Below are positions 1 through 50,099 of a stretch of DNA of 64,000 bases, piece after piece. Position numbers and translations under genes: made by a program. The notes below the pieces were generated by a model. It did not search any database, was not told the origin of the DNA, and worked only from the letters and a program-made list of their open reading frames with translations. Source of the DNA: Amyelois transitella (Eukaryota; Arthropoda; Insecta; Lepidoptera; Pyralidae). The stretch spans positions 50,001-114,000 of the forward strand of contig NC_083512.1 in NCBI RefSeq assembly GCF_032362555.1, in the 5' to 3' direction. How positions within the stretch are numbered: the first letter of the stretch is position 1; each line of letters opens with the position of its first letter.

Positions 1-3000
1 ATTTAAACCTAACCCCACCGATTTAAACCTAACCCCACCGATTTAAACCTAACCCCACCGATTTAAACCTAACCCCACCGATTTAAACCTAACCCCACCG
101 ATTTAAACCTAACCCCACCGATTTAAACCTAACCCCACCGATTTAAACCTAACCCCACCGATTTAAACCTAACCCCACCGATTTAAACCTAACCCCACCG
201 ATTTAAACCTAACCCCACCGATTTAAACCTAACCCCACCGATTTAAACCTAACCCCACCGATTTAAACCTAACCCCACCGATTTAAACCTAACCCCACCG
301 ATTTAAACCTAACCCCACCGATTTAAACCTAACCCCACCGATTTAAACCTAACCCCACCGATTTAAACCTAACCCCACCGATTTAAACCTAACCCCACCG
401 ATTTAAACCTAACCCCACCGATTTAAACCTAACCCCACCGATTTAAACCTAACCCCACCGATTTAAACCTAACCCCACCGATTTAAACCTAACCCCACCG
501 ATTTAAACCTAACCCCACCGATTTAAACCTAACCCCACCGATTTAAACCTAACCCCACCGATTTAAACCTAACCCCACCGATTTAAACCTAACCCCACCG
601 ATTTAAACCTAACCCCACCGATTTAAACCTAACCCCACCGATTTAAACCTAACCCCACCGATTTAAACCTAACCCCACCGATTTAAACCTAACCCCACCG
701 ATTTAAACCTAACCCCACCGATTTAAACCTAACCCCACCGATTTAAACCTAACCCCACCGATTTAAACCTAACCCCACCGATTTAAACCTAACCCCACCG
801 ATTTAAACCTAACCCCACCGATTTAAACCTAACCCCACCGATTTAAACCTAACCCCACCGATTTAAACCTAACCCCACCGATTTAAACCTAACCCCACCG
901 ATTTAAACCTAACCCCACCGATTTAAACCTAACCCCACCGATTTAAACCTAACCCCACCGATTTAAACCTAACCCCACCGATTTAAACCTAACCCCACCG
1001 ATTTAAACCTAACCCCACCGATTTAAACCTAACCCCACCGATTTAAACCTAACCCCACCGATTTAAACCTAACCCCACCGATTTAAACCTAACCCCACCG
1101 ATTTAAACCTAACCCCACCGATTTAAACCTAACCCCACCGATTTAAACCTAACCCCACCGATTTAAACCTAACCCCACCGATTTAAACCTAACCCCACCG
1201 ATTTAAACCTAACCCCACCGATTTAAACCTAACCCCACCGATTTAAACCTAACCCCACCGATTTAAACCTAACCCCACCGATTTAAACCTAACCCCACCG
1301 ATTTAAACCTAACCCCACCGATTTAAACCTAACCCCACCGATTTAAACCTAACCCCACCGATTTAAACCTAACCCCACCGATTTAAACCTAACCCCACCG
1401 ATTTAAACCTAACCCCACCGATTTAAACCTAACCCCACCGATTTAAACCTAACCCCACCGATTTAAACCTAACCCCACCGATTTAAACCTAACCCCACCG
1501 ATTTAAACCTAACCCCACCGATTTAAACCTAACCCCACCGATTTAAACCTAACCCCACCGATTTAAACCTAACCCCACCGATTTAAACCTAACCCCACCG
1601 ATTTAAACCTAACCCCACCGATTTAAACCTAACCCCACCGATTTAAACCTAACCCCACCGATTTAAACCTAACCCCACCGATTTAAACCTAACCCCACCG
1701 ATTTAAACCTAACCCCACCGATTTAAACCTAACCCCACCGATTTAAACCTAACCCCACCGATTTAAACCTAACCCCACCGATTTAAACCTAACCCCACCG
1801 ATTTAAACCTAACCCCACCGATTTAAACCTAACCCCACCGATTTAAACCTAACCCCACCGATTTAAACCTAACCCCACCGATTTAAACCTAACCCCACCG
1901 ATTTAAACCTAACCCCACCGATTTAAACCTAACCCCACCGATTTAAACCTAACCCCACCGATTTAAACCTAACCCCACCGATTTAAACCTAACCCCACCG
2001 ATTTAAACCTAACCCCACCGATTTAAACCTAACCCCACCGATTTAAACCTAACCCCACCGATTTAAACCTAACCCCACCGATTTAAACCTAACCCCACCG
2101 ATTTAAACCTAACCCCACCGATTTAAACCTAACCCCACCGATTTAAACCTAACCCCACCGATTTAAACCTAACCCCACCGATTTAAACCTAACCCCACCG
2201 ATTTAAACCTAACCCCACCGATTTAAACCTAACCCCACCGATTTAAACCTAACCCCACCGATTTAAACCTAACCCCACCGATTTAAACCTAACCCCACCG
2301 ATTTAAACCTAACCCCACCGATTTAAACCTAACCCCACCGATTTAAACCTAACCCCACCGATTTAAACCTAACCCCACCGATTTAAACCTAACCCCACCG
2401 ATTTAAACCTAACCCCACCGATTTAAACCTAACCCCACCGATTTAAACCTAACCCCACCGATTTAAACCTAACCCCACCGATTTAAACCTAACCCCACCG
2501 ATTTAAACCTAACCCCACCGATTTAAACCTAACCCCACCGATTTAAACCTAACCCCACCGATTTAAACCTAACCCCACCGATTTAAACCTAACCCCACCG
2601 ATTTAAACCTAACCCCACCGATTTAAACCTAACCCCACCGATTTAAACCTAACCCCACCGATTTAAACCTAACCCCACCGATTTAAACCTAACCCCACCG
2701 ATTTAAACCTAACCCCACCGATTTAAACCTAACCCCACCGATTTAAACCTAACCCCACCGATTTAAACCTAACCCCACCGATTTAAACCTAACCCCACCG
2801 ATTTAAACCTAACCCCACCGATTTAAACCTAACCCCACCGATTTAAACCTAACCCCACCGATTTAAACCTAACCCCACCGATTTAAACCTAACCCCACCG
2901 ATTTAAACCTAACCCCACCGATTTAAACCTAACCCCACCGATTTAAACCTAACCCCACCGATTTAAACCTAACCCCACCGATTTAAACCTAACCCCACCG

Positions 3001-3120
3001 ATTTAAACCTAACCCCACCGATTTAAACCTAACCCCACCGATTTAAACCTAACCCCACCGATTTAAACCTAACCCCACCGATTTAAACCTAACCCCACCG
3101 ATTTAAACCTAACCCCACCG
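1..3120. repeat. Subtelomere-like satellite, 156 x 20 bp
   Basis: The unit ATTTAAACCTAACCCCACCG is repeated 156 times with no substitution or indel visible, and stops abruptly at CCCGGGTAAT (3121). Each unit contains one CCTAA, the insect telomere pentamer, in the strand orientation expected at a left chromosome end. The array touches the first base of the window, so its true length is unknown. A subtelomeric satellite is my inference. A collapsed or artificially extended assembly region is an alternative. Confidence 0.97.
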
Positions 3121-21513: not shown

Positions 21514-24500
21514 ATGTGGGACTCCTCAACGTTTCTGGGCGCTCTGACGCCGAAGTTCTACGTGGCTCTGACCGGCACATCATCTTTGATCTCGGGATTG
21601 ATCCTGATCTTCGAGTGGTGGTATTTCCGGAAGTATGGCACGTCGTTTATTGAGCAAGTGTCGCTCACCCATCTGGGGCCTTGGCTGGGTGGCGGTGGCG
21701 CGGCGGAGCCCGAGCCGCCCGGCGAGTGCAAGGTGTGGCGCAATCCCATGGCGCTCCTGCGCGGCGCGGAGTACGGCCGGCTGTGGACAGTGGCGCGCCG
21801 CGCGCCGCTCACCTACTACGACATGAACCTGTCTGCACAGGAGCATCAAGCTTGGTTTTCATGCGGCGCCGAGGTAATAAATTATGGGTTTGACAAATGT
21901 TTGTAATAATTTTACTGAAAAAGATATAAATGACTTGCCATGGCGTACTTACCTTTTAATAATCCCTCCGGATATTATAATGCCATAAGCAAAATGAAAT
22001 AACAGATGTAAAAATAAACGCCATCAAAAACATCCTGTAAAAAAACCCAAGTCTCGCAGCTCAGTTTTCTACCGTAAAAAGTTGTGAGGTCCATGTAATA
22101 CCAAGTAGGTTAATCTAGTCTCTACTTAAATGACCTTATGTCTTAAGTTATTGCATAAGTTATTATCATGCCAATATTTAAAGTTTTAATCAAATAGATC
22201 GACTTGGTCATCGTTGTGTTTGTGTATTCGCAATTTGTTGATGTCAATAAATAAGCGATACCTTGTATCCTATTTTGAATATTAATCTATCTTATTATAT
22301 TTCAAATGCATTTTAAACAAAGTGCAATATTATGATTCTAAAGAAAATAGGCTGAAGTTAAATGAGTGGCCGAGGGGCAAGTTGTAATTTTACAGGTTCT
22401 TTTTACTACCAATTATTCACTAAAATCAAAACTTCATTAAGAGAGTATAAAATGCCATGTGGTTACTGAGACCTGAGATTTTGTTTTGTTTGTTGTGGTA
22501 CTTTCAACTTTTCAGAACCACTTTAAACTTTTCACACCTTAAGTTTGCTAGTGTAATGGTTTAATGAATTTTAATCTTGTGATATAAATGATTCAATAAT
22601 TTTGCACTTAAAAATTACAAAGTCACCACCATGACACACGTATTTAGCAATGGTCTCTCGACTAACGGTAGTCGTTTCTTGTATATCAGATCCAGGATTG
22701 TGTTCATAGCCAAAGTCTGGGCTTCTCACCAGAGAGAAACAACACAAGGTGTGTATTGGCCGTATGCCACGTGTGGGTATTGCAGGGCCCGGCGGAGGAG
22801 GCGATGGCGCGCGCGTGGCGCGAGCGCGAGCCCGGCGCGCGCGTGGCGGCGGCGCGCGCGGCGCTGGCGGCGCGGCCCGATTGCGCGGCCGCGCTGCTGC
22901 TGCTGGCCGAGGAGGACGCGCCCACCGTGCTCGAGGTTCGCGTGCCACCAGCTTGGATGTTTATCTATACAGGGTGACATTTAAAACAACTGCATCCTTT
23001 TAAGCATAGACTATACCCATGCTTCTGAGCCGTTTGAGCCTATTTTTATTTAAATTAAACGTCATCATTTTCACATTTAAAAAACCCTCAAAAACTGCCT
23101 CACACGCTTTATTAAAGACTACAAAGACTACCAAAACAAATTAAAACTAAACATGTAAATAAATGCCTGAAAAATAAATTATTTTTCTAGTATCAAGATC
23201 AAGTAAAGTACAGAGTTGTCGAGATCGCTCAGCTGAATGAATTGTGTCGTTTCCTACGCATCTTACGCGTCGCTTTTCCGGCCGGGGTGATATGACGTAT
23301 TTAGGATCGTGGATTTTGATACTTTTATTTTTTTTCGTACTTTCTGAAATATGAACCGATATTTTTCTTTTGACGTTTTTAAATATCCTTTAGATGAGTA
23401 CACTTAACAGTTAATTTTATGCAGGTGAATTTAAAGTCACCCTGTATATGTATTTATTGTAAAACATAGCTTCATTGAGTTAGTATCTTGTAACACAAGT
23501 CTCGAACTTACGAAAATTACGCATGAAATTTCAAGAAGATTACGCGTGTAGAGTAATCAAACAAACTTACATATATATATATATTATATGATTATGTTCC
23601 TTATCTGTGCTTGTTTTTACGCAACCCTTCATATGCGAGTCCAACTTGCACTAGGTGACTTTAAAAAATGAAAACACGCGGCAAAATACTCGACTTAATA
23701 TGTACTAGCTGTGCCCGCGACTTCGTCCGCGTGGAATAGTTATTTTGGGCATCATATTTATTTTTGCAAACATCCTCCTAGGCTTTATCAATTATAGCTG
23801 CTAATTGTTATGCGACTTGGCGACGACTTGGCCCACATCATTACCCGCGACGGAACGGAGACCGTATAGTGAGATGAGAGGCCTATGCCCAGTAGTGGGC
23901 GTCAGGCGGTCACGCGTATTAGAAAGAACGCTGGTTCGCCGTATTAAATGTTTCGCTGCAAATTGCTTATAACGACTATATCTCAAAACCTATTCGTCTG
24001 ATTTATATACTGTAAATAGAAATTTTAGTCTACATGAAAAGCCGAAAGTAATAAACATATTTATTTGGATAAGGATTAATACTGAATTAAAGAAAATTGG
24101 TTTCAAAATAACTGATGTTTATAATGAAAAAATAATCTTAAAAAATGAACATAAAAGTGGTTATTGTAAGTAAACCTTAAGAGATAGATATATGCTCTCG
24201 CGGACTTTTTTGTGGCAAAAAATGAGTACTTCACATCTTTAGTACATTGTTTTACTATATCTTTGTTGGTTTGCGCAGCGTTCGCGTGGAAAGCTCGCAG
24301 ATGGCCGACTCATTCAACTTTCACCTGCATTGTTGACGTTTCCCGTAGGAAATCCGGGATAAAATGTAGCCTATAGCCTTCCTCGATAAATAGACTATCT
24401 AACAGTGAAAGAATTATTCAAATCGGTTCAGTAGTTTCTGAGATTAGCGCGTTTAAACAAACAAACAAACAAACAAACAAAACAAACTCTTCAGCTTTAT

Positions 24501-25421
24501 AATATTAGTATAGATGTGGATTGAAATAATAATAAGAAATACCCGCTGTCGTCAGGCGGAGCGCATCCTGAAGCGCGCGTGGCGCTGCGCCGAGACGGCG
24601 TGGCGCGCGTCGTCGCTGGCGCACGGCGCGGGCTCGGAGGCGGCGCGGCGCGACGCGGCGCTGCTGCTGCACGTGAAGCGGCGCTGCGGCGTGGCGGCGC
24701 GGCGCCTGGGCCGCCTGCGCGACGCCGCGCGCCTGTTCCGCGAGCTGGCGCGCGACGCGGCCGGCGCCGCGCCCGCCGCGCAGGCGCACGAGAACCTCAT
24801 CGAGGTGCTGCTCGAGCAGCGCGCCTATGCGGACGTGCAGGTCGGTTACGTTTATATCGTAAATTTATCAATCTTTCAGTTTCGCTTTTCACGTCAGCCT
24901 CACTGGAAGTAAACATATTTTGACGAAGCCTATTACAAATATTTGAATACCTTATGTATAATTTGTTGTTGATTAGGGACTTTATTAAAAAAATTCTATC
25001 AGTAGAATAAATATTGAAAAAACGTTTTTTTTCCTTATTGCTCCAATATTAAATATGTGTTACGTTGACAAATATTAAAATTGAAATTTTTGACCTGCAC
25101 GTAGAATTCACGTCCAGATGATATGTGAGGATTCCGACTGACAGGAAGCGACTGCATAAACTGGGCAAAACTTCATGTCTATTCTACCAAAACGTCTATT
25201 CCATAGGGATAATGACGTAGTAGTTAACTGTAGTTTAAGTAGACAATAAAGAAGTAATAGCATTGGTGTGTGTTTGTGAGGCGGTGCTAGCGCGCCACGC
25301 GGACGCGTGCCTGCCGGTGTCGGCGTGCGTGCTGTACACGAGCGCGCTGCTGCGAGCCCGCGCCGCGCTCGCCGCGCCGCCCGCCGCCGCGCGCGCCGCC
25401 GAGCTCGCCGCCGCCGAGGTG

Positions 25422-25475
<54 letters not shown>

Positions 25476-25562
25476 TACACGAGCGCGCTGCTGCGAGCCC
25501 GCGCCGCGCTCGCCGCGCCGCCCGCCGCCGCGCGCGCCGCCGAGCTCGCCGCCGCCGAGGTG

Positions 25563-25620
<58 letters not shown>

Positions 25621-25707
25621 TACACGAGCGCGCTGCTGCGAGCCCGCGCCGCGCTCGCCGCGCCGCCCGCCGCCGCGCGCGCCGCCGAGCTCGCCGCCGC
25701 CGAGGTG

Positions 25708-25761
<54 letters not shown>

Positions 25762-25848
25762 TACACGAGCGCGCTGCTGCGAGCCCGCGCCGCGCTCGCC
25801 GCGCCGCCCGCCGCCGCGCGCGCCGCCGAGCTCGCCGCCGCCGAGGTG

Positions 25849-25904
<56 letters not shown>

Positions 25905-25991
25905 TACACGAGCGCGCTGCTGCGAGCCCGCGCCGCGCTCGCCGCGCCGCCCGCCGCCGCGCGCGCCGCCGAGCTCGCCGCCGCCGAGGTG

Positions 25992-26049
<58 letters not shown>

Positions 26050-26136
26050 TACACGAGCGCGCTGCTGCGAGCCCGCGCCGCGCTCGCCGCGCCGCCCGCC
26101 GCCGCGCGCGCCGCCGAGCTCGCCGCCGCCGAGGTG

Positions 26137-26214
<78 letters not shown>

Positions 26215-26301
26215 TACACGAGCGCGCTGCTGCGAGCCCGCGCCGCGCTCGCCGCGCCGCCCGCCGCCGCGCGCGCCGCCGAGCTCGCCGCCGCCGAGGT
26301 G

Positions 26302-26363
<62 letters not shown>

Positions 26364-26450
26364 TACACGAGCGCGCTGCTGCGAGCCCGCGCCGCGCTCG
26401 CCGCGCCGCCCGCCGCCGCGCGCGCCGCCGAGCTCGCCGCCGCCGAGGTG

Positions 26451-26508
<58 letters not shown>

Positions 26509-26595
26509 TACACGAGCGCGCTGCTGCGAGCCCGCGCCGCGCTCGCCGCGCCGCCCGCCGCCGCGCGCGCCGCCGAGCTCGCCGCCGCCGAGGTG

Positions 26596-26663
<68 letters not shown>

Positions 26664-26750
26664 TACACGAGCGCGCTGCTGCGAGCCCGCGCCGCGCTCG
26701 CCGCGCCGCCCGCCGCCGCGCGCGCCGCCGAGCTCGCCGCCGCCGAGGTG

Positions 26751-26794
<44 letters not shown>

Positions 26795-26881
26795 TACACG
26801 AGCGCGCTGCTGCGAGCCCGCGCCGCGCTCGCCGCGCCGCCCGCCGCCGCGCGCGCCGCCGAGCTCGCCGCCGCCGAGGTG

Positions 26882-26935
<54 letters not shown>

Positions 26936-28641
26936 TACACGAGCGCGCTGCTGCGAGCCCGCGCCGCGCTCGCCGCGCCGCCCGCCGCCGCCGAGGTGAC
27001 GCACACACACACACACACACACGCACACACGATACACGGCGCGCCGCTTTATTGCATCATACCTACGCATTATAACTTTTATTTTTACTGACCAACCACG
27101 AAACTGTTAAAATCAAATTAACTGTTGATAAGAATATAAATCATATTACATCATATTTTTACATAATTATAATATAATTTAATCGCAAAATAAAAGTTAA
27201 ATTATTAATATATTTTTTTATTTATGATACCGTGTGCGTGCGTGTGGCAGGCCGTGCGGCGCGCGGTGGAGTACAACCCGTTCGCGGCGGAGTACCTGCT
27301 GGAGCTGCGGCCGCTGTGCCTGCCGCCCGAGCACGTGCTGCGGCGCGGCGACAGCGAGGCGCTCGCCTACGCCTTCTTCCATCTGCGGCACTGGACGTGA
27401 GTCTCCCATTCCGAACACGCGTACTAGTCAGTCAGCTCATCATTATAACCAAATACGAATAAATTCATTCCTAAGAATGATTTTTGTAAAAAGTCAATGT
27501 CGGAACGCATCAAGAGAGAGGGTTGATATTAAAACGAGAAAGAAAATTTATCCGCCTCGGAACCATATTCAACCTAAAAATATAGCAAAGTGAGAGAAGA
27601 CAAGACATAGCAAGGCGGTTGGTTCACGAAACTGGATAGAGCTTAAAAAGAACTTAAGATAGAAAGAGAGAATAGATTATCCATTTGTTTAGCTATTCTC
27701 TCTTTCTATCTTAAGTCATCACAAACACCGCAATGACGTCATTACGGAGTTGGTGATGACTGAATAATTTTTTATATTGTGAGTTAATACTTTTTTAAAC
27801 TGTTAAATAATATTTATACATAGCTTCCTCTTGTAAGCGATGGGCTTGCAACTATATGTATGTAGTTAGTTTTTATTGTGATTGTAAGAAGTGGATGTTT
27901 GTTTGTTCGTGCGCGGCAGCAACGCGGAGGGCGCGCTGGCGCTGCTGGCGGCGGGCGCGCGGCGGGCGGGCGCGCGCGCCGCCGCCGACGCCGAGCTGCT
28001 GCCGCCGCACCACTGCCGCCCGCTCGCCGGTACTGGCTCGCTGTATCCTGATCAGGACCGACACGAGGCTCTTAGTAAAACGTCGCAGATGCGAGAAAAG
28101 ACAGATCATTGAAAAATTTGTAGAATAAAGACAATCTTTTTTTAAACTAATTTTACAAGTTAAAGAGGTAGTGGGTTTAAAGCTAAAGCACGAGATCCAG
28201 CAAGTAGCCGGTAGAAAGCGAGCGACTTGGTGAACACTGATGCGCGTGCGCGTTTTTATACCGAAGCAGCACAACGTCACAATAGGTACCCTCAATGCAA
28301 AGAAATGCCTTCATTCTTGTCTTGGATTTTTCTTAAAAGATAGATGTGCCGTTTGGTTCTTGTTACTAATAAAAAAGGACCATTTCATCTCGTTCCCATG
28401 GACATCGTAAAAGGCGACTTAGGGGCAGGCTTATAAACTTGGACTTCTTCTTTTAGGTGATGACGTGATGATATATATGTATGGTATAGCTATTAGACAA
28501 TGGTAAATGTGTCCGGCAGGCGGCGCGCCGGCGCTGCTGCCGCTGGCGGCGGGCGCGTGCGTGGTGTCGTGCGGCGCGGCGCTGGCGGCGCACCGCTGGC
28601 CGCCGCAGCTCGACCTGCGGCGCCTGCTGGCCGCGCTCTGA
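21514..28641 (+). CDS. ST7: ST7 family protein (suppressor of tumorigenicity 7 homologue), 7 exons
   Basis: Exons: 21514-21873, 22786-22935, 24556-24840, 25281-25418, 27251-27396, 27920-28029, 28520-28641 (TGA). All phases agree, giving 436 aa. ST7 proteins are conserved membrane-associated proteins of uncertain biochemical role. Near-identical family blocks are visible: [99 protein letters not shown]. Residues 12-34 form a hydrophobic membrane segment. The start MWDSS matches the insect form as I recall it; the vertebrate N-terminal extension is absent. The protein is short for the family (about 530-585 aa). The region after exon 5 is shortened and Ala/Arg-rich, and the last block is diverged. 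Exon 4 begins after a weak acceptor (TTTGTGAG) and its 3' end is amplified (25335-27038). Splicing must skip that array to reach exon 5. Confidence 0.92.
22966..23449. mobile_element. Inverted-repeat DNA element in ST7 intron 2
   Basis: The left end TATACAGGGTGACATTTAAA (22967-22986) and right end TTTAAAGTCACCCTGTATA (23430-23448) are inverted repeats of about 19 bases with one indel, flanked by TA. The element is about 480 bases, AT-rich and has no ORF. It begins only about 30 bases after the exon 2 donor. It is a probable non-autonomous TA-targeting DNA transposon; the superfamily is not settled. Confidence 0.6.
23705..24514 (-). mobile_element. Non-autonomous Helitron in ST7 intron 2
   Basis: In minus-strand sense it begins TCTATACTAATATTATAAAG and ends in a short GC-rich hairpin (CGCGGACGAAGTCGCG) about 9 bases before CTAG, inserted between A and T. 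These are Helitron hallmarks. A (GTTT)n run follows the 5' end. An unrelated repeat containing GGCCTATGCCCAGTAGTGGGC (about 23880-23900) appears nested. A short copy of the family is at 50795-51069. The 5' end stops 42 bases before ST7 exon 3. Confidence 0.85.
25335..27038 (+). repeat. Tandem array of ST7 exon-4 end + splice donor + (CA)n, 12 copies
   Basis: The 84-base exon end (28 codons, from TACACGAGCGCG to GCCGCCGAG) begins at 25335, 25476, 25621, 25762, 25905, 26050, 26215, 26364, 26509, 26664, 26795 and 26936. A truncated TACACG remains at 27033. Each copy is followed by the donor GTGACG and a (CA)n tract. Periods are 131-165 bases, differing mainly in CA length. Coding parts look identical except copy 12, which lacks 24 internal bases (in frame). 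The first copy is the real exon 4 end; the rest lie in intron 4. Every repeat junction reads CACGATACACGAG. Confidence 0.97.
27652..27716. repeat. 24-bp perfect inverted repeat (hairpin) in ST7 intron 5
   Basis: Arms 27652-27675 and 27693-27716 (ACTTAAGATAGAAAGAGAGA... and its complement) pair over 24 bases around a 17-base loop. The stem is purine-rich on one arm. It may be a mini inverted-repeat element or a small-RNA hairpin. Confidence 0.85.
28372..28466 (+). mobile_element. SINE-like retroposon fragment in ST7 intron 6
   Basis: Contains AAAAAAGGACCATTTCATCTC, CCCATGGACATCGTAAAAGGC and AGGCTTATAAACTTGG in sense orientation, then stops within TTAGGTGATG. It is truncated and lies about 55 bases upstream of exon 7. 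Confidence 0.7.
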
Positions 28642-28730
28642 CTGCCTGCTGTCTGATGCCGCGTGACCCTTCTTGTCACTTGATTACAGCAGAACGGATA
28701 TTTCTGTCCTACTTAAGAAATTCAGTAGCA

Positions 28731-28740
28731 AATAAATAAA
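28731..28740 (+). terminator. ST7: Poly(A) signal of ST7
   Basis: Two overlapping AATAAA hexamers lie about 90 bases after the ST7 stop codon. They would give a short 3' UTR. Confidence 0.7.
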
Positions 28741-47189: not shown

Positions 47190-50099
47190 ATAGAGCGGCA
47201 ACATTGTTCCCAGCCGAGCGGAATACATTACGTGGTTATTTCGCGCTCCATTGCTCGCGAAGAACGCTTTACAACTTATAATGTGGTGTGTACAAGGGGT
47301 AATGGAAATCCGTGCTTTGTCACTTCCAAGATATTGAAGTGGTAATTGGCTGTGGATGATTTTTTTAAAACGTATCTTCACGGCAAATATTAGGGTTGTA
47401 AGAAAAGATTTAACATTCTCATTGCGACTTTAGATTAGGGCTACAATTGTAAGCTTATACCAAGTAACAAAATACCAACACCAATCAACATTACAAAACA
47501 ACAGAAGAGAAAATCAAATTGCCACAACCATTAATCATACAATTATTTGATTACGTTTTTGCATAAAATTATCGCTTGAAATATGCAACGTCGATATTTT
47601 AAATTGTCTTACCAAAGTATTGACTTACCAATCGTCACAAATATGATCAAACAAAAATAGTTCGGACCCGGCGGGCAGCCGGACTAATTGATTCTCGTCC
47701 GGTTATAGACGCCGCACACCTACGATTGTCGCTACGAGAGGGCAGGTTACAGGCAATGTCATTAATTTTTTTCTATTTAAAAATCCTTCACGTTGAATAA
47801 GTGCCTGAAATGTATGAACATTGCCACCATCTGTTTTCTTTACTCCGCTGCAGAAAATATTAAAACGCTTTGTACTATACAAATCGTTTCTAGTGAAGAA
47901 AATACTGAGACGTATACAGGGTACCTAGTTCAGGGTGCTATGTTCAGGTAGCACTGTAATGAAAAGTGATTTTTAACTCCGCTTTTCCGAAGGTTCATTC
48001 GATATTTATTTTAACTGGCAAAATTGCAATATTTAAATTTTAAATTATCATCTATTAGTAGTAGTTCAGTTGTTAGCCCGGTTATGTATTCTTAAAAAAG
48101 GCTTATTACATAGATTGCTAGACTCACCAATCCTGGTATCTCCAATCACCAGTCTGGCGGGTAATAAAGAATAATACTTAGATATCCACATTAATTAATT
48201 ACTTGAAACGGCAACAATTTTCATTGCGTCATTACAAAGATTCAAATTGCCAGTCCGTATCGCACGTCAAACGGTTGGAACAGTATTTATTTCCGCGAGG
48301 CGTTCGATCAGTCGCAGGCTGTGTGGAGCGGACACATCGATCACGATCCGTCTGTTGGCCGCAACATGTTGCGTGGAGCGGACACGTCGATCACGATCCG
48401 TCTGTTGGCCGCAACATGTTGCGTGGAGCGGACACGTCGATCACGATCCGTCTGTTGGCCGCAACATGTTGCGTGGAGCGGACACGTCGATCACGATCCG
48501 TCTGTTGGCCGCAACATGTTGCGTGGAGCGGACACGTCGATCACAATCCGTCTGTTGGCCGCAACATGTTGCGTGGAGCGGACACGTCGATCACAATCCG
48601 TCTGTTGGCCGCAACATGTTGCGTGGAGCGGACACGTCGATCACAATCCGTCTGTTGGCCGCAACATGTTGCGTGGAGCGGACACGTCGATCACAATCCG
48701 TCTGTTGGCCGCAACATGTTGCGTGGAGCGGACACGTCGATCACGATCCGTCTGTTGGCCGCAACATGTTGCGTGGAGCGGACACGTCGATCACAATCCG
48801 TCTGTTGGCCGCAACATGTTGCGTGGAGCGGACACATCGATCACAATCCGTCTGTTGGCCGCAACACGTCGCGTCGGGCCCGAACATTACCAATATCCTG
48901 TATCTTGTCGCAACTGTGTCGGCTCACCTGATGTTTTCAATTTCAAAAGATGCATGTGAGATTAAATGAAAATGTTTTGATGCTCAAATGACAATGATAC
49001 TATATTATAGTTGGTGTGTCTTTGCGTGTTCCCAGTGGCCTTCCAGTGTAAAGGCTCTAGGTCTGCTTCTGACTTTATGTCTTGGTATGGCTTTCAGTAA
49101 AAGTAATTAAGTTTGCAAAGGCAGATATTTTATTAATATTATATTCAGCGTTCTATGATTGCAAACTAGAAACAACTTCACAGACAAAGAAGCAAAAGGT
49201 TCTTCATTAGAATACTATAGTCCATTCTATATTATAAATGTAAAATGTTTGTCTCCCTTTTGCAAAACCGGCGGATTAATGACAACTGGTATGAATATAG
49301 TTGCTTTACCCGAGAAATTCATAGATTAATTTACTCTAAAAATCACTAAGGCAAAGGAAACGATAGTTATAGTTTAACGCGGACGAAGTTACGGTAAAAG
49401 CTTGTATAGAAAACAAGATTCGAATCACGTGAGTGGTGTCGATGAATGGCGGCGTCTGCCTGAACCAGGAAATGAGTTTCGGAGGTCGGGCGCGCGGGGA
49501 GGTTGTCCTGAACACTTATCAAACTTTACACGTATCTTTATTTATCAAAATATTATGAAATGATCGTTGCAATGTTCAATGCTACCACCATACTTGATAT
49601 ATTGCCGCCACCAGAAACCGTTTTGTGTTGCGTTTTGTTAACTCTATATAAATAAATAAATAAAATTTATACAAAGTGTTAACAATGTTGTATAACTGAA
49701 TTAATACTGAATAAGTACTGCATTTAAATAATAATTGAATTAAGAATAAATACCGATTCATCACAGTGTGATTAATCATAATGTGATAATTTTTTTTTGC
49801 TTTTGAGAGAAAAAATGATAAAGACTGAATTTCAATGAAATATAAATAACAAATCTAAAAAAGAAACTAGTCTATTTTTTTACTGATAACCATATCAAGA
49901 CACTCTCAAAAACTGGATTGAAAAAGAAAAAAGCTGAATCTAAGGCACACTTCCCGTCAAGTTATGTTCCCGAATAGTGTCCCTGAGAGTCTTACTTCCA
50001 GAAAGTTGCGTCCCGAGTGCGGGAGTTGGACCGGGACACTCGACGGGACGTCCTCCTTGTTTGTAGCAAAACTTACAAACACTGAACATTCATCAGTTG
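47190..50099. other. Gene-free sequence flanking the minisatellite
   Basis: Apart from the 11-copy array, this stretch is AT-rich with a GC-richer patch at 49440-49510. No exon or recognisable RNA gene was seen. Confidence 0.45.
48321..48870 (+). repeat. 50-bp minisatellite, 11 copies
   Basis: The unit begins GCGTGGAGCGGACACGTCGA and ends GGCCGCAACATGTT. Eleven copies in register span 550 bases. Variation is almost only two A/G sites (GACAC[A/G]TCG and TCAC[A/G]ATCC). The first copy starts GTGTGG and the last ends CACGTC. Each junction creates the 12-bp palindrome GCAACATGTTGC. There are no stops in any forward frame, and the three frames rotate with each 50-base step. No known domain appears, and the frames' conservation follows from the repeat, so I do not call a gene. 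Confidence 0.95.

Follow-up and report, generated by a model that had tools for sequence, protein, structure and literature searches.

A probable minisatellite spanning the exon 4/intron 4 boundary of an ST7 gene repeats one splice donor twelve times

Introduction

Which donor is used when the end of an exon, together with its splice donor, occurs twelve times in a row? The question is raised by a tandem array in an ST7 gene that lies in a 64,000-nucleotide stretch of DNA (the window), corresponding to positions 50001-114000 of contig C8 in an assembly of 327 Mb and 33 contigs. At window positions 25335-27038 of the + strand, the end of coding exon 4, a donor and a run of CA dinucleotides, (CA)n, are repeated head to tail. 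Based on the analyses below, the array is probably a minisatellite spanning the exon/intron boundary that arose by recent tandem expansion seeded by the hexanucleotide TACACG. Most of it would lie in intron 4, with the first donor (donor 1) yielding normal ST7. All unit and copy counts are those of one assembly.

Results

The array comprises twelve units, each containing the end of ST7 coding exon 4, GTGACG and (CA)n. In units 1-11, an 84-nt core of 28 codons is followed by GTGACG, (CA)n and CGA. An earlier interpretation of this DNA, hereafter the sequence-only reading, had described a twelve-copy array of exon end, donor and (CA)n in which CA lengths varied and coding parts looked identical. 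Indeed, twelve units were measured at 25335-27038 and n ranged from 10 to 36. The coding identity was slightly overstated: the 84-nt core is letter-identical in 11 of the 12 units, but that of unit 12 is 60 nt long, with 24 internal nt missing. This anatomy is established.

Unit 1 (25335-25475; donor GT at 25419, n = 24) has the native exon flank to its left. It is followed by unit 2 (25476-25620; donor 25560, n = 26), unit 3 (25621-25761; donor 25705, n = 24), unit 4 (25762-25904; donor 25846, n = 25), unit 5 (25905-26049; donor 25989, n = 26), unit 6 (26050-26214; donor 26134, n = 36), unit 7 (26215-26363; donor 26299, n = 28), unit 8 (26364-26508; donor 26448, n = 26), unit 9 (26509-26663; donor 26593, n = 31), unit 10 (26664-26794; donor 26748, n = 19) and unit 11 (26795-26935; donor 26879, n = 24). 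Unit 12 (26936-27032; donor 26996) has a CA run of n = 10 and then an interrupted CA stretch, with the native intron flank to its right. All units are on the + strand, and donors 2, 5, 8 and 10 are in frame with donor 1. The right end of the array closes with TACACG (27033-27038).

The 11 start-to-start distances between units range from 131 to 165 nt. Tandem Repeats Finder reported a period of 145 at 25335-26991 (score 2675) and a double period of 286 (score 2794). The motif GTGACG(CA)7, with up to two mismatches, occurred 12 times in the window versus 0 times in 100 shuffles. The first 266 bases of the array were also used to query the assembly. This search omits simple repeats and scores only the best candidates, so its counts are lower bounds. 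It returned at least 21 matches, of which 11 were in the array (120-480 bits). Among the matches listed, no strong copy of the unit was found elsewhere in the assembly: the 10 outside the array all scored 67.1 bits or less over 76 bases or fewer.

Near-identical units can be miscounted, and the animal might carry fewer copies than the assembly presents. Against such an artefact, unit lengths vary, unit 12 is distinct and the array is only 1.7 kb long. Moreover, the same contig starts at (CCTAA)n, which suggests a long-read assembly. We consider a miscount of this kind very unlikely.

The twelve donors are letter-identical, GAG|GTGACG, as expected from the earlier proposal of twelve equivalent donors. 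The array contains 12 GT dinucleotides, one per unit, and every one is within AGGT. Among its 47 AG dinucleotides, none is part of CAG or TAG. The donor identity and the absence of these trinucleotides from 25335-27038 are likewise established. Because CAG and TAG are absent, the array appears to multiply donors only, without the usual acceptor. These observations bear on whether the units could be removed stepwise, either through dual-specific AG|GT sites, as in human UBC, or by recursive splicing. In favor of stepwise removal, all 12 donors are AGGT, and UBC repeats are described as being spliced in this manner (PMC10809524). However, the AG of each unit is a GAG that lacks a pyrimidine tract and, together with the zero counts for CAG and TAG, this led us to reject UBC-like dual-specific sites on sequence grounds. 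Stepwise removal as a whole is extremely improbable.

To identify the gene, the whole assembly was searched with the Pfam ST7 profile (PF04184), for which the curated cut-off is 24.3 bits. Four matches were obtained, all above the cut-off and all at window positions 21526-27406. Joining seven exons on the + strand at GT/AG sites, with donor 1 ending exon 4, gave an open frame of 436 codons plus stop. Coding exon 1 (21514-21873) starts at the ATG at 21514, ends at the donor GTAATA, fits the spliced frame and matched the profile at 21526-21873 with 190 bits. Exons 2 (22786-22935) and 3 (24556-24840) are bounded by splice sites and matched with 47.5 and 65.6 bits, respectively. Exon 5 (27251-27396), whose acceptor is GTGTGGCAG|GCC, matched with 76.1 bits. 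With donor 1 as its end, exon 4 (25281-25418) contains 46 codons, the last 84 nt of which are the core of unit 1. On its own it scored 18.6 bits, below the cut-off, at profile positions 310-338; in the spliced product it is continuous within the overall match. Exon 6 (27920-28029), mostly past the Pfam match, and exon 7 (28520-28641), with the stop TGA at 28639-28641, were placed using splice sites and the open frame. The modeled exons 2-7 (22786-28641) have a G+C content of 73-87% and contain many Ala and Arg codons.

Two of the twelve predicted products, those of donors 1 and 2, were run against the profile. The 436-residue product of donor 1 scored 480.2 bits in one unbroken stretch, in which residues 6-371 aligned with profile positions 37-421 of 533. 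By these matches, the gene carrying the array is ST7, the name given to it by the sequence-only reading, and the four ST7 matches of the assembly all belong to this locus. The product of donor 2, which has a 47-residue insert, scored 479.5 bits, and its alignment was split into two stretches. As judged by the profile, it is the broken alignment and not the bit score that tells the two donors apart. Because the match of the donor-1 product is unbroken, ending exon 4 at donor 1 agrees with the ST7 family without a large insert. Profile positions 422-533, the C-terminal fifth, were unmatched by the spliced product, suggesting that this end of the gene has diverged or is mis-modeled.

The consequences of using each donor were evaluated by joining it to exon 5 and extending the last exon to 29300. 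Donors 1, 2, 5, 8 and 10 lead to the ST7 stop, with predicted products of 436, 483, 626, 779 and 879 residues, respectively. A frame shift is predicted for donors 3, 4, 6, 7 and 9, whose products end at a last-exon stop at 28737; the donor-11 product ends at 28664. With donor 12, translation would meet a TGA at 26880 inside the array, supplied by the GTGACG of unit 11. Thus, of the 11 extra donors, four keep the ST7 frame, six shift it and one gives an early stop; the frames of the twelve products are established. The sequence-only reading had suggested that in-frame copies could lengthen the protein by repeated Ala/Arg-rich modules joined by Thr-His runs. Lengthening in frame is predicted for four of the extra donors, but not for the other seven. 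The clean Ala/Arg module joined by Thr-His is found with donor 2. With donors 5, 8 and 10, the insert is read partly in another frame of the core and is Arg-rich, unlike the ST7 module. Since four of eleven is about one third, and since 2-nt changes in CA length shift the frame freely, we see nothing to indicate that coding length is under selection.

The stop encountered by the donor-12 message precedes the last junction by 369 nt, making this message a candidate for decay. The position of donor 12 also defines the shortest intron, 255 nt versus 1832 nt from donor 1. If the proximal donors, 11 and 12, dominated by virtue of this short intron, the array would constitute a loss-of-function or down-regulating ST7 allele. 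Such an outcome would be in line with human CBS, for which lower enzyme activity is reported with more repeat units (PMC5188458, citing Lievers 2001). However, the Pfam search located a single ST7 locus in the assembly, and the rest of the gene is open and spliceable. Overall, we regard dominance of the proximal donors as unlikely.

Intron 4 carries complementary dinucleotide-type runs at its two ends: (CA)10-36 after the donors and a GU-rich tract at the acceptor. The latter, CCGTGTGCGTGCGTGTG (27230-27246, + strand), lies just before the exon 5 acceptor and is complementary to (CA)n, although interrupted by a C. The predicted energy of the CA:GU duplex is -24.1 kcal/mol for units 1-11 and -26.7 kcal/mol for unit 12. 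None of 500 dinucleotide-shuffled acceptors reached -24.1, and 1 of 675 CAG-ended 40-mers of the window did. For the other five ST7 introns, matched ends gave duplexes of -9.9 to -18.5. In a partition function calculated over 25200-27300, 13.4 of the 17 nt of the GU tract were expected to pair with CA regions. By unit, the expected GU-tract pairs were 9.3 for unit 12, 2.6 for unit 11 and 0.0 for unit 1.

This pairing could be taken to mean that the donors compete by docking, each (CA)n pairing with the single GU tract of exon 5 and the pairing picking the donor. Under this view, the balance of ST7 isoforms would be tuned by the number of copies and the length of the CA runs. Three observations are consistent with docking: the duplex exceeds those of the shuffles and of the matched ends of the other ST7 introns; the GU tract pairs mostly with CA regions in the ensemble; and dinucleotide repeats at opposite intron boundaries are described as mediating U2AF2-free splicing in zebrafish (PMC9198270). 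Several observations argue otherwise. The ST7 acceptors of exons 4 and 2 are also GU-rich, and for the CA run of donor 1 duplexes of -19.1 to -22.2 are predicted with three of the five other acceptors; such tracts may therefore be habitual throughout this gene. When donors and acceptors of other introns are combined unmatched, values of -25 to -26 are reached; by itself, duplex energy is thus of low specificity. Upstream of the exon 5 acceptor there is a U-rich stretch as well, such that U2AF is not obviously dispensable. Finally, a preference for donor 12 would give an early stop. Docking would thus oppose donor 1, in which case it would either be overridden in cells or lower the ST7 output. 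Based on these considerations, docking is an unlikely determinant of donor choice, and the more elaborate scheme of a copy-number-tunable donor selector, in which twelve identical donors with CA docking runs compete for one GU selector, is rather improbable. Binding of hnRNP L to CA runs is plausible.

A CA run beside a donor was also evaluated as a genome-wide device. AGGTRAGT followed by (CA)7 within 12 nt occurs only twice in the whole assembly (C8:1557764-1557797 and C28:3773817-3773849) versus 0 times for the reversed pattern, and the candidate was rejected; this too argues against docking, at least as a general device.

With respect to the origin of the array, TACACG opens it in the exon, at 25335, and closes it in the intron, at 27033. 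The five bases CACGA precede TACACG both at the right edge and at the junction of units 1 and 2. This pattern is what remains after a tandem duplication between two 6-nt repeats. The microhomology is established; the order of events we infer. Specifically, the presence of TACACG in both exon 4 and intron 4 would have allowed a tandem duplication of the exon end, donor and (CA)n, and slippage or unequal exchange would then have produced twelve copies. Eleven identical cores beside differing CA runs suggest that the expansion is recent or that the cores were homogenized.

The array is about 75 kb from the end of a contig that starts with (CCTAA)n. (CCTAA)n is the insect-type telomere repeat and, taken with the count of 33 contigs, may point to a moth or butterfly. 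Minisatellites are common near telomeres.

Other repeats were noted in the window. Positions 1-3120 (C8:50001-53120) contain 156 letter-perfect copies of a 20-bp repeat that includes CCTAACCCC. Contig C7 starts with a related 20-bp repeat, ACCCATATAAACCTAACCCC. Together, the 20-bp repeats of the two contigs look like a subtelomeric satellite family. Immediately to the left of the window, 2500 positions read N. At 48323-48874, a 50-bp tandem repeat of 11 copies with 98% matches has long open frames on both strands.

Discussion

The most likely status of the array is that of a functionally intronic element with leakage. In this model of a recently expanded, boundary-spanning minisatellite, the copies beyond donor 1 would be mostly in intron 4, and donor 1 would be spliced to exon 5 to yield normal ST7. 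The identical downstream donors would compete at a lower level, giving rise to longer, frame-changed or early-stopped messages. The recency of the expansion and the preference for donor 1 are parts that we infer.

Five considerations weigh against this interpretation. First, 6-nt matches between exon 4 and intron 4 are not rare, numbering 29 in 32,868 position pairs, so TACACG supports the duplication route without proving it. Second, homogenization by gene conversion would mimic recency. Third, the Pfam scores of the donor-1 and donor-2 products are only 0.7 bits apart. Fourth, the predicted RNA pairing prefers units 12 and 11 over unit 1. Fifth, an uninterrupted frame 0 of 547 codons extends to 26879, spanning ten units plus the eleventh core; such a run arose in 2.5% of trials in which the unit lengths were randomly reordered, and it might point to translation of the copies.

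Selection for an open frame across the array was nevertheless rejected. The minus strand is open too: at 25111-27106, the whole array is stop-free in all three frames (623, 589 and 646 codons), and composition explains much of this. Because the frame-0 run was also spotted post hoc, it was not counted as evidence of translation. The stop-free minus strand over the array constitutes a compositional trap for gene finders.

Judged by its sequence, the ST7 array has the same architecture as a variable number of tandem repeats (VNTR) in human CBS, and is therefore of a kind already known. The array had been called unusual by the sequence-only reading; this holds, but the 31-bp CBS repeat is a precedent. 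As far as the cited sources describe it, the latter is named c.1444_1467+7(16_21), a name denoting 24 cDNA and 7 intronic bases and 16-21 copies (PMC2630376), and is located at the exon 13/intron 13 boundary (PMC1395315). A third account describes it as non-coding boundary sequence (PMC5188458). As in the ST7 array, the CBS unit so described combines coding nucleotides with a donor, occurs in many copies in a row and is not a multiple of 3 in length. The two differ in unit size, 31 bp in CBS versus a larger 131-165 bp in ST7, and each ST7 copy bears a CA run. Further, the CBS repeat is reported to be polymorphic and linked to enzyme activity, whereas the ST7 array is known from the sequence of one assembly. 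With respect to donor usage, Lievers is said to have found in 2001 that the extra CBS donors are used in cells.

More distant similarities are found in three other systems, again as far as their descriptions go. Human UBC and VCX3A contain repeats with an AGGT-type site that serves as donor and acceptor (PMC10809524). AGGT is thus present in their repeat units, as it is in the ST7 array, and repeat number and splicing interact. However, the UBC units keep the frame and their site is both donor and acceptor, whereas the ST7 array has no visible usable acceptor. In potato RdRp, an intron was gained by tandem duplication across the intron 1/exon 2 boundary (PMC4974935). The ST7 array likewise involves tandem duplication across an intron-exon boundary, but one duplication yielded a new intron in potato, whereas in ST7 the donor is present twelvefold and no new intron is evident. 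Finally, the paired-repeat introns of zebrafish resemble ST7 intron 4 in having complementary repeats at both ends, which in ST7 are predicted to form a stem. In ST7, twelve CA runs face one GU tract, in contrast to the paired repeats described in zebrafish. According to Lin et al. in 2016, the latter are reportedly AC and GT.

Should the donor selector discussed above operate, repeat number and CA length would set an individual's ST7 proteins (436, 483, 626, 779 or 879 residues, or frame-shifted and decay-prone messages). The array would then be a natural repeated test of distance and pairing at constant donor sequence. The finding also adds a CBS-like case, probably in an insect, and suggests a route by which such arrays may be born: microhomology together with a CA run next to a donor in the vicinity of a telomere. 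More generally, studies of donor choice are usually confounded by donor strength. All 12 ST7 donors share at least 26 downstream nt, and 11 of them also share the 84 nt upstream. RNA sequencing would therefore read the effect of position almost alone, and in a natural gene. The value of the locus thus lies in the opportunity, offered by nature, to examine donor choice while the donor sequence stays the same.

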